A stretch of DNA of 64,000 bases from Amycolatopsis sulphurea (lineage in GTDB: Bacteria; Actinomycetota; Actinomycetes; Mycobacteriales; Pseudonocardiaceae). Below, one piece after another: positions 25,661-27,276 of the stretch (positions within the stretch are counted from its first letter, which is position 1; each line of letters starts with the position of its first letter). The stretch lies in NCBI RefSeq assembly GCF_002564045.1, contig NZ_PDJK01000002.1, positions 1,178,001 to 1,242,000 of the forward strand, written 5' to 3'. Below the pieces are notes generated by a model. That model did not search any database, was not told the origin of the DNA, and saw only the letters and a list, made by a program, of their open reading frames with translations. The position numbers and the translations under genes are program-made.

Positions 25661-25707
25661 GTGAGAGGTCCCTTTACGGACTCTGAGTCCGTAAAGGGAC
25701 CCTTCAC
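25661..25707. repeat. Palindromic repeat copy 2 (47 bp, two mismatches)
   Basis: A 23-bp inverted repeat around a single base with the usual 30-bp spacing of the two cores. The cores here are GTGAGAGGTCCCTTTAC and GTAAAGGGACCCTTCAC. Unlike most copies it lies upstream of both flanking genes (divergent DUF2332 and corA), so a purely terminator role does not fit this copy. Confidence 0.85.
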
Positions 25708-25858
25708 GGCGCTGCCGACGGTAACGCCTGGCGAGCCAGGTGCGACACGTATCCGTGGCGAGGAGTACCCTCGGCCATCGGTAGATCGCGCGTCAACGCG
25801 AGCCTAGCCATTTCGCACGCCTCGCGTGCCCCGGCCGAACGGAGGTGAGGAACCGACC

Positions 25859-25936
25859 ATGAGCAGTGGTGATAGTCCGCTCCCTAGTAGTCCCCGCGTT
25901 CCCGCCTCGCCGGCCGTACCGGCTTCCCCCCGGTAG
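25859..25936 (+). CDS. Proline-rich leader peptide (uORF) upstream of corA, 25 residues
   Basis: ATG at 25859 is preceded by GGAGGTGAGG with 8 nt to the start, one of the best ribosome sites in the window. It reads MSSGDSPLPSSPRVP followed by ASPAVPASPR and stops with TAG: 7 prolines and 7 serines in 25 residues. The stop lies inside a hairpin (25917-25935). It ends 92 nt before corA. Proline-rich leader ORFs controlling Mg2+ transporter genes are known in enterobacteria (mgtL before mgtA; corL before corA). This candidate is not obviously homologous, and the functional parallel is inference. Confidence 0.55.
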   Translation: MSSGDSPLPSSPRVPASPAVPASPR

Positions 25937-25980
25937 GCGTTCGTCGGAACGCGGTGATGCCGGACGGACACTTCAGTCCG
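25917..25980 (+). promoter_or_regulatory. Structured mRNA leader of corA: three successive stem-loops
   Basis: Stems by eye: TACCGG/CCGGTA (7-nt loop, overlapping the end and stop of the leader ORF), GCGTTC/GAACGC (GTCG loop, 25937-25952) and CGGAC/GTCCG (6-nt loop, 25965-25980). No T-run follows the last stem. Ribosome movement to the leader stop would open the first hairpin. An M-box riboswitch was considered but not recognised. Confidence 0.45.
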
Positions 25981-26028
25981 CCTGGCCGTCGTCAGTCGCG
26001 TTTCCACGACGTCAGCCCAGGAGAACCC

Positions 26029-27117
26029 ATGCCTGCCATTCCCTCGCTCGGCGGCCTTCGCGGCCGCGGCAACAACCGGGCCAAGGCCACCCCCGAGCGG
26101 CCGATCCCGGTCCCGCTGTCGGCGTACGTGGTCGACTGCGCGGTGTATGTCGAGGGCAAACGGCTGCCCGGCCGCTGGACGCACGCCGAGGCGATCAAGG
26201 AAGTACGCCGGCGCCACGCCGGGTTCGTCTGGATCGGCCTGCACGAACCCGACTCCGAGCAGATCCAGGGCATCGCGGAGACCTTCGGGCTGCACGAGCT
26301 GGCCGTGGAGGACGCGCTCGAAGCCCACCAGCGGCCGAAGCTGGAGCGCTACGACGACACACTGTTCCTGGTGCTCAAGACGGTCCGCTACGTGGAGCAC
26401 GAGTCGCCGACCACGGCCAACGAGATCGTGGAGACCGGCGAGCTGATGGTGTTCCTCGGCCGCGACTTCGCGATCACCGTCCGGCACGGCAACCACTCCG
26501 GGCTGGCCCGGCTGCGCCGTGACCTGGACTCCGACCAGGAGCGGCTGGCACTGGGCCCGGCCGCGGTGGTGCACGCCATCGCCGACCACGTGGTCGACCA
26601 CTACCTGGACGTGACCAGCCGGATCGAATCGGACATCGACGAGATCGAGGCGCAGGTGTTCGCCCCGCGCTCGCAGGTCAGCGCCGAGCAGATCTACCTG
26701 ATGAAGCGGGAGGTGCTGGAGCTGCGCCGCGCGGTGATGCCGCTGGCCACCCCGGTCTCCCGGCTGGCCGAGGGCTACACCCGGCTGGTGCCCGACGAGG
26801 TCCGCTCCTACTTCCGGGACGTGGCCGATCACCACGCGACGGTGTCCGAGCGGGTGGCCGCGTTCGACGAACTGCTGAGCACCCTGGTCGACGCCACGGT
26901 CACGAAGATCTCGCTGCAGCAGAACACCGACATGCGCAAGATCACCTCGTGGGCGGCGATCATCACGGTGCCCACCATGATCGCGGGCATCTACGGCATG
27001 AACTTCGACTACATGCCCGAACTGCACTGGCAGTTCGGCTATCCGATCACGGTCACCGTGATCCTCGGGATCTGCCTGCTGCTGTACCGAATATTCCGGA
27101 AGAACGGCTGGTTGTAG
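26029..27117 (+). CDS. corA: CorA family magnesium/cobalt transporter
   Basis: A 362-residue CorA channel, a pentameric Mg2+ uptake system in the inner membrane. The C-terminal end has the two membrane helices with the diagnostic IYGMNFDYMPEL loop (YGMN selectivity motif) between AAIITVPTMIAGIYGMN and YPITVTVILGICLLLY, and a basic end (RKNGWL). The long cytosolic N-terminal domain (ELAVEDALEAHQRPKLERYD) is typical. The ATG follows AGGAGA by 5 nt. Matches Rv1239c, which lies next to sugC in M. tuberculosis; here the sug genes are 4 kb further on. Confidence 0.95.
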   Translation: MPAIPSLGGLRGRGNNRAKATPERPIPVPLSAYVVDCAVYVEGKRLPGRWTHAEAIKEVRRRHAGFVWIGLHEPDSEQIQGIAETFGLHELAVEDALEAHQRPKLERYDDTLFLVLKTVRYVEHESPTTANEIVETGELMVFLGRDFAITVRHGNHSGLARLRRDLDSDQERLALGPAAVVHAIADHVVDHYLDVTSRIESDIDEIEAQVFAPRSQVSAEQIYLMKREVLELRRAVMPLATPVSRLAEGYTRLVPDEVRSYFRDVADHHATVSERVAAFDELLSTLVDATVTKISLQQNTDMRKITSWAAIITVPTMIAGIYGMNFDYMPELHWQFGYPITVTVILGICLLLYRIFRKNGWL

Positions 27118-27168: not shown

Positions 27169-27276
27169 ATGCTGACCAACCTCAAGTTCTGGGCGTTGAC
27201 GCTCACTCTCGCCTGGATCGTCGGCATCGTCGCCGTGATCGTGGCCAATCCCGGGTTCGCACACGGGATGAACTGA
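27169..27276 (+). CDS. Small single-span membrane protein, 35 residues
   Basis: ATG at 27169 with ACAGGAG 7 nt upstream. It reads MLTNLKFWALTLTLAWIVGI then VAVIVANPGFAHGMN: one strongly hydrophobic helix with a short polar tail. It lies 51 nt downstream of corA on the same strand and before a strong terminator, so it is probably the last gene of the corA transcript. Small membrane proteins often modulate transporters; that link is inference. No family recognised. Confidence 0.6.
   Translation: MLTNLKFWALTLTLAWIVGIVAVIVANPGFAHGMN

Follow-up and report, generated by a model that had tools for sequence, protein, structure and literature searches.

Behind the M-box riboswitches of mycobacteria lies a conserved upstream open reading frame, uORF2, which is translated and whose translation initiation region (TIR) is masked by a complementary segment, the anti-TIR (PMC12810186, 2026; this and the other papers cited are represented here by parts of their text). 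The same paper describes Rho-dependent termination, a proline at position 7 that is kept in most of the peptides and an Rv0115A type that is an exception to the location downstream of an M-box. It presents uORF2 as the first open reading frame (ORF) of a regulated operon and calls the uORF2/Rv1805A peptide mycobacteria-specific, with an unclear role. In enterobacteria, translated CorL, the product of a leader ORF, lowers corA (PMC11552253). Here we describe a leader ORF in front of the Mg2+ channel gene corA of Amycolatopsis sulphurea, found in a stretch of 64,000 nucleotides (contig NZ_PDJK01000002.1, positions 1,178,001 to 1,242,000 of the forward strand; hereafter the window, whose own numbering is used). 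In our best reading this uORF is an M-box-free variant of a Mg2+-linked leader-peptide module that is attached to corA. An earlier, sequence-only reading of the window had held that no comparable actinobacterial arrangement was described, a view that needs revision given the mycobacterial uORF2, which the corA uORF resembles. No paper describing this corA leader by title or abstract was present among the matches listed from the open-licence full-text literature, subscription papers lying outside that search.

The uORF extends from an ATG at 25859-25861 to a TAG at 25934-25936 on the forward strand and encodes the 25-codon peptide MSSGDSPLPSSPRVPASPAVPASPR, with 7 Pro and 7 Ser. It is preceded by the Shine-Dalgarno (SD) sequence GGAGGTGAGG at 25841-25850, and 92 nt separate its stop from the corA ATG at 26029. 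These counts of the sequence-only reading were correct on re-reading, and so was its placing of the stop within the first of three hairpins: the TAG falls in the loop of the stem 25894-25902/25946-25954, and two further hairpins can be drawn by eye at 25959-25986 and 25987-26011. The corA product matches PF01544 (E 9.2e-64) and is a CorA-type Mg2+ channel of 362 amino acids (aa); a CorA match is present in all 80 genomes of the window's genus set.

We compared 163 corA loci (sets of 80 and 83, with species partly shared) using a rule that required GAGGTG, an ATG or GTG 8-19 nt downstream and 10-60 codons. This rule returned a uORF in 122 distinct leaders, with 98 ATG and 24 GTG starts; two of these picks were wrong (L077, which has a proper uORF elsewhere in its leader, and L086). 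Left out were L073, which is doubtful, and L105, a Streptomyces leader whose uORF is not credible and which was dropped as a duplicate. No rule-based uORF was found in 34 of the 163 loci, mostly from Mycobacterium and its kin, Rhodococcus, Nocardia, Millisia and Streptomyces, and including two Actinophytocola metagenome-assembled genomes, L059 (masked by N), L075 and three extra Amycolatopsis corA copies. Credible uORFs span 18-43 aa. Clades differ in how far the stem segment inside the uORF (region 2, below) lies from the start codon (24, 30, 33, 36, 39, 42, 45, 48 or 60 nt), and this distance is a multiple of three in 121 of 123 leaders, being 36 nt in 83 of these. Of the two off-frame leaders, L046 is an anchor mis-pick (33 nt under a stricter pattern) and L056 is genuine. 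The uORF stop lies between both stem arms in 122/123 leaders, the exception being the mis-anchored L046; the search for the downstream arm was first limited to sequence after the stop, a limit that was later lifted. In L010 and L011 the uORF is longer, with 43 codons against 25 in their kin; the roughly 54 extra nt (18 codons) are in frame and lie downstream of the conserved N-terminus and upstream of the usual stem arm.

Codon changes point the same way. Among 87 Amycolatopsis-type leaders, codon 2 is AGT or AGC in 69 and TCC or TCG in 18, all encoding Ser although AGT and TCC have no base in common, and codons 5, 6 and 7 encode Asp, Ser and Pro in 87/87, this set having been selected by that motif. 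Across 30 distinct 33-nt stretches the share of differing codons that are synonymous is 735/1653 (44.5%) in frame 0, 170/1419 (12.0%) in frame 1 and 135/1589 (8.5%) in frame 2; a set based on a peptide motif favours frame 0, and the start-to-stem distance is the less biased test. Lack of in-frame conservation among relatives had been named as what could refute the ORF, and the outcome does not refute it. The comparison argues that a conserved in-frame leader gene precedes corA, beyond chance. What is kept across leaders is the SD with its spacer, the N-terminus (MSSGDSPLP) and the codons that form region 2. Proline is kept far less: the uORFs of 33 clade representatives have between 0 and 7 each, consecutive Pro is rare, and only Pro7 and Pro9 of the Amycolatopsis form recur. 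By eye, Pro7 is present in 15 of these representatives, including the window's MSSGDSP, the Amycolatopsis form and some others, and absent from the other 18. Codon usage at the start of the uORF is also odd. GC content at third positions is 0.43 in uORF codons 2-15 against 0.95 in corA, AGT makes up four of the first 11 codons yet 0/363 codons of corA and 0/375 of the neighbouring gene, Ser 6 is encoded by AGT in 87/87 Amycolatopsis-type leaders, and an AGUA is near-invariant. It is therefore likely that decoding is slow here or that these bases have a role in the RNA.

Three segments of the leader provide two pairings that share the middle one (Table 1). Region 1, which holds the uORF SD, pairs with region 2 as GGTGAGGAAC/GTTCCCGCC in the window, as GGGAT/ATCCC in Saccharopolyspora and as GGTACGC/GCGTCC in L154. 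Region 2 pairs with region 3 as CCGCGTTCC/GGAACGCGG in the window and as AGCGTTCCC/GGGAACGCT, CGCATCCCC/GGGGATGCG or CGCCTCCCG/CGGGAGGCG in other leaders. The window's duplex energies are -16.8 kcal/mol for 1:2 and -18.3 kcal/mol for 2:3 (-23.3 with extension). When partners were permuted among 33 clade representatives, picked by hand from about 130 leaders, the observed energy was -603.8 kcal/mol against -532.6 ± 12.3 for 1:2 (z -5.8; 0/20000) and -695.0 kcal/mol against -580.4 ± 13.6 for 2:3 (z -8.4; 0/20000); with a smaller, earlier set of 16 leaders, the observed values were reached by 20/20000 and 0/20000 permutations, respectively. The choice of region 2 relied on pattern and energy. In L043, L052, L065, L070 and L071 its anchor fell 2 nt off under a looser pattern; stricter ones were used elsewhere, among them the rule for the 123 leaders, which gave no region 2 in L302, L010 and L011. 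In an alignment of 32 leaders, the 2:3 stem together with a candidate small hairpin, P0, reached 80.2% paired cells (shuffles, 74.5%) and 32 cells with two-sided change against 15.5, the number 32 being attained by 0/500 shuffles (slid controls, 3-11). P0 itself is only suggestive, with 72.9% of cells paired, two-sided change in 3/5 pairs and middle pairs broken in L154, L157 and L158. RNAalifold on a MAFFT alignment of 34 leaders did not recover the 2:3 stem, probably because its arms were misaligned. As predicted, pairings 1:2 and 2:3 are mutually exclusive, and since both co-vary the leader has the appearance of a two-state gate that controls initiation of the uORF.

To follow this arrangement beyond the compared loci we used a covariance model, R1, built from 32 Pseudonocardiaceae-type leaders with the window's included and no mycobacterial row. 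Of 150 Pseudonocardiaceae genomes R1 matches 122, which represent 40 of the 46 genera, with one match per genome except in G189, which has two. Directly 5' of corA lie 122 of the 123 matches, with a median distance of 65 nt from the matched start (range -11 to 251), a placement drawn from all 123 R1 places and part of the corA places. The window scores 95.3 bits (E 4e-21), its leader being itself one of the 32 rows; the next-best match in the window (17 bits, E 0.0096) was taken as chance. The second match in G189 (L203) was likewise set aside as chance, not being beside corA and lying antisense to a long open frame. A corA at E 1e-60 or better is present in 140 of the 150 genomes, and 11 of the 18 corA genomes without an R1 match carry a uORF that follows this plan in divergent form (e.g. 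MDPAPGSSTKRVP, MSSEPQTPVSSTCRLP). Within Amycolatopsis the exact pattern occurs once in 56/80 genomes and never twice. A contig labelled Rhodococcus rhodnii (JOAA01000016; L045) carries corA and a uORF almost like that of Kibdelosporangium (L060), which may represent contamination or transfer.

The window's leader is not an M-box. No Rfam family matched the window at gathering, RF00380 included, and at E up to 10 there were only microRNA- or VA-like chance matches; the classical M-box that the sequence-only reading had named as a possible outcome thus falls away. The connection to M-box leaders appears outside the family. Among 249 genomes of the order, R1 gave eight weak matches outside Pseudonocardiaceae (E 7e-5 to 0.009); of the six that were scanned with Rfam, five sit behind an M-box (RF00380, 140-155 bits) and L199 does not, L201 and L202 being outside the scan. 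Of 298 genomes of the order, 49 were matched by a sequence-only model, R2, that included five mycobacterial rows; 29 belong to the window's family, 18 to a second family (f8; 1-4 copies each) and two, matched weakly, to other families. Across the phylum R2 matched 9/296 genomes, six of them at E > 0.001, and all matches outside the two families had E > 0.001. We take family f8 to be Mycobacteriaceae because of its PPE-like and Rv1535/ileS-like neighbouring genes, identified by eye. All listed f8 copies were fetched, and an M-box lies upstream on the same strand in 33 of 41; L282, one of the eight without, looks like a chance match. The f8 peptides begin MSSSDSPDRSP, MSSGDSPSRYL or MSPGDSPYPYS, and L195-L197 precede an isoleucyl-tRNA-synthetase-like frame (by eye), which fits the rv1535 type of PMC12810186. 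We equate these uORFs with uORF2/Rv1805A as a match in position, SD and Pro7; the peptide sequence is absent from the parts of that paper covered, and the identity therefore rests on these three features. Six f8 copies without an M-box (L261, L274, L276-L278 and L280), several of them starting MS[SP]SDGP, are possibly of an M-box-independent type. M-boxes are rare in Pseudonocardiaceae, with 2 of 100 genomes and none of 4 from the window's genus. By eye, MSPGDSRSPKPVRVPELARQH comes after the M-box of L284, and the uORFs behind the rare M-boxes L284 and L287 are of MSPGD and MSTDD type.

Other features of the leader are collected in Table 1. No promoter was returned by a sigma-70 consensus scan of 25700-26060. 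Between the -10-like TACCCT and the uORF SD sits the 5' hairpin, whose stem varies in Amycolatopsis around its near-invariant loop; this hairpin might act as a stabiliser, serve as a protein site or belong to the switch. Only some of the Amycolatopsis leaders carry an anti-SD-like UCUCCUGG where the uORF ends (by eye). Directly 3' of corA, at 27169-27276, is a small hydrophobic ORF of 35 aa with an SD, with tblastn matches (E up to 0.01) in 57/110 corA loci. REP-like palindromes (GGTCCCTTTACGGACTC / GAGTCCGTAAAGGGACC) occur at 25667-25701 and elsewhere in the window, one arm having 18 matches (up to 3 mismatches) against 0.09 expected.

Table 1. Features of the corA leader and gene, in window coordinates
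Feature	Position	Strand	Basis
-10-like TACCCT	25766..25771	+	Kept across Amycolatopsis leaders; alignment of 34 representatives, by eye
5' hairpin region with near-invariant GUCAAC loop	25775..25811 (limits approximate)	+	Alignment of 34 representatives, by eye, no statistics
Region 1, uORF SD and spacer (TIR); can pair with region 2	25841..25855	+	Duplex -16.8 kcal/mol in window; permutation over 33 representatives
uORF, 25 aa, MSSGDSPLPSSPRVPASPAVPASPR	25859..25936	+	ORF reading and leader comparison
Candidate small hairpin P0 (AGUGG/CCGCU, loop UGAUAGU), over uORF codons 3-8	25865..25881	+	Alignment covariation
Region 2 (anti-TIR), CCCGCGTTCCCGCCTC, within uORF; partner region 1 or region 3	25893..25908	+	Duplex energies, permutation
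Region 3 (anti-anti-TIR), GGAACGCGG, 3' of uORF stop; partner region 2	25946..25954	+	Duplex energies, covariation, permutation
Second stem, GCCGGACGGAC/GTCCGCCTGGC	25959..25986	+	Alignment, by eye
Third stem, CGTCGT/ACGACG, adjoining corA SD	25987..26011	+	Alignment, by eye
corA, CorA-type Mg2+ channel (362 aa), SD AGGAG at 26019-26023	26029..27117	+	PF01544, E 9.2e-64

The conserved uORF, its two exclusive pairings, the near-exclusive association with corA and the likeness to M-box uORFs, all obtained by comparison, lead us to read the corA leader as a cis-acting leader-peptide switch, with a probability of roughly 0.68. That a switch of some kind exists is highly probable on the sequence comparisons and its link to Mg2+ is probable, while the sign of control, with an open uORF as the ON state, is an even bet and the weakest step. 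In this proposal the uORF would be translated. Pairing 1:2 would hide the uORF SD and keep the uORF shut, and pairing 2:3 would free the SD, so that either formation of 2:3 or an engaged ribosome would open the uORF. A ribosome on codons 5-16 would block both stems, and its position and dwell time (Asp5/Pro7, rare AGT codons) would thereby decide the next fold. The choice of fold would then set corA output, probably through a leader exposed to or shielded from Rho, a route we propose because no intrinsic terminator (GC stem with U run) was found in 25700-26060. Mg2+ shortage is taken as the input, and the open uORF as ON, because of the kinship with the mycobacterial M-box uORF2; the precedents of CorL, mgtQ and uORF2 point to different signs of control.

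Several observations weigh against this proposal. Two of the five covariation measures were weak, with 8 pairs showing two-sided change against 5.7 in shuffles (reached by 18/500) and 17 further pair types against 17.0 (308/500). In the minimum free energy (MFE) fold of the window's whole leader, 1:2 is formed and region 3 base-pairs with the third stem's loop, though 2:3 is the stronger duplex, and MFE folds vary between species. In 38 leaders there was no conserved partner masking the corA SD, nor one of region 3 further downstream, and the output step is therefore not visible in the sequence; a fourth region sequestering the corA SD was rejected, no common partner being present in these leaders. 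L056 carries the stem in another frame, 7 of the 140 corA leaders have no such uORF by the SD words used, 5/33 representatives have no acidic residue in the first ten and 7/33 no Asp/Glu followed by Pro within five. In mycobacterial uORFs the signal for an internal anti-TIR is mixed and mostly no better than in shuffles (z -2.6 to +2.4; 37 loci, mononucleotide shuffles). Translation, Mg2+ response, sign and sensor of this leader are inferred.

The sign in particular may be reversed. In a CorL/MgtL-like scheme a completed uORF would repress corA by way of Rho access, and ribosome failure at the early Asp/Pro codons in low Mg2+ would turn corA on. The inverse relation between corL translation and corA output in E. 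coli (PMC11552253) would fit, as would the lack of an intrinsic terminator. Asp or Glu occurs within the first 10 residues of 28/33 representatives, followed by Pro within five in 26/33, and MgtL has EPDP as its destabilising motif (PMC11282234). Here, however, there is mostly a single acidic residue, whereas acidic pairs mattered in the E. coli cases (PMC11282234), and PMC12810186 places the mycobacterial relative at the head of the regulated operon, as its first ORF. We regard this reversed scheme as rather unlikely. A constitutive leader, whose uORF would do no more than protect or stabilise the mRNA without responding to a signal, would accord with the earlier view of E. coli corA as constitutive (per PMC11552253). 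It is improbable, since two exclusive, co-varying pairings are hard to explain without a switch and the module is shared with M-box leaders.

The peptide could instead act in trans, as a small protein on CorA or another Mg2+ transporter. This hypothesis is raised in PMC12810186, and the same N-terminus does occur at several Mg2+-linked loci; only about nine N-terminal residues are kept in the Amycolatopsis form, however, the rest varying in sequence and length (18-43 aa), and the variable part doubles as region 2, so that we think such a role similarly improbable. At the other extreme, a metal- or metabolite-binding RNA might act alone with the ORF incidental. Conservation of nucleotides beyond the needs of the peptide (the AGT of Ser 6, the low third-position GC content, the AGT codons shunned by corA and its neighbour), the candidate P0 and the near-invariant AGUA would agree with this, but an incidental ORF would hardly keep frame over nine start-to-stem distances, switch between Ser codon types, exchange ATG for GTG and hold its stop in the loop in 122/123 leaders. 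With Rfam matches in the window limited to chance-level ones, RNA alone is very unlikely. Least credible is the reporting of proline supply, by proline-tRNA attenuation or stalling dependent on elongation factor P, to which the seven Pro codons of the window's uORF had drawn attention; with Pro number not kept, and consecutive Pro rare, proline attenuation was rejected. Of the sequence-only reading, a conserved uORF with exclusive pairings before a Mg2+ channel gene thus stands, and proline as the conserved signal does not.

Read as a cis-acting switch, the corA leader connects the CorA channel gene, in a family rich in antibiotic producers, to a conserved but unexplained peptide from the Mg2+ operons of mycobacteria, and it contradicts the mycobacteria-specific view of that peptide. 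It also offers non-pathogenic hosts in which the role of the peptide can be tested without a riboswitch interfering, and it presents a leader ORF whose codons apparently mask their own start site, an arrangement kept over 40 genera. A wider and more tentative idea, possible but on balance doubtful, is that the MSSxDSP uORF itself serves actinobacteria in general as a Mg2+ gauge whose reader is the translating ribosome, a gauge that in mycobacteria lies behind the M-box and in Pseudonocardiaceae is aptamer-free, carries a self-coded anti-initiation segment and controls corA.

Among known systems, the corA motif of Gammaproteobacteria (PMC6429828) is likewise a candidate RNA directly 5' of corA, but it is reported, in the part of that paper covered, from Gammaproteobacteria and metagenomes only. 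The M-box riboswitch RF00380 shares with the present element its place in actinobacterial Mg2+-transporter leaders, although it has no match in the window. CorL and MgtL (PMC11552253, PMC11282234) are, like the window's uORF, encoded by short uORFs that overlap alternative stems before a Mg2+ transporter gene, here corA or mgtA, MgtL being Asp/Pro-containing; sequence likeness to them is known only as a short Asp/Pro resemblance, weaker than in MgtL, no other relation having been searched for. Salmonella mgtQ (PMC8092293) is similar in being a uORF that overlaps exclusive stems 1:2 and 2:3 and has early acidic residues, but its stem 3:4 hides the ribosome-binding site (RBS) of mgtB, whereas no conserved 3:4 stem or masking of the corA RBS was found here. 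The corA leader differs from the mycobacterial uORF2 leaders in lacking an M-box, in its host gene, corA, and in its family, Pseudonocardiaceae, and the order of segments is TIR, anti-TIR (in the uORF) and anti-anti-TIR (after the stop), whereas that of pe20 is anti-anti-TIR, anti-TIR and TIR (PMC12810186). Set beside the Rv1805A/uORF2 family, the window's uORF does not have the position downstream of an M-box; it does have the Pro7 N-terminus, a strong SD of like context that one model (R1) picks up, and a TIR that can be masked. It thus shares with uORF2 and the Rv1805A-Rv1535A-Rv0115A peptides (PMC12810186) the GGAGGTGAGG-type SD, the M-S-x-[SG]-D-S-P start with Pro7, the Mg2+-linked operon and an initiation region that, here by computation only, can be masked by an anti-TIR and freed by an anti-anti-TIR.
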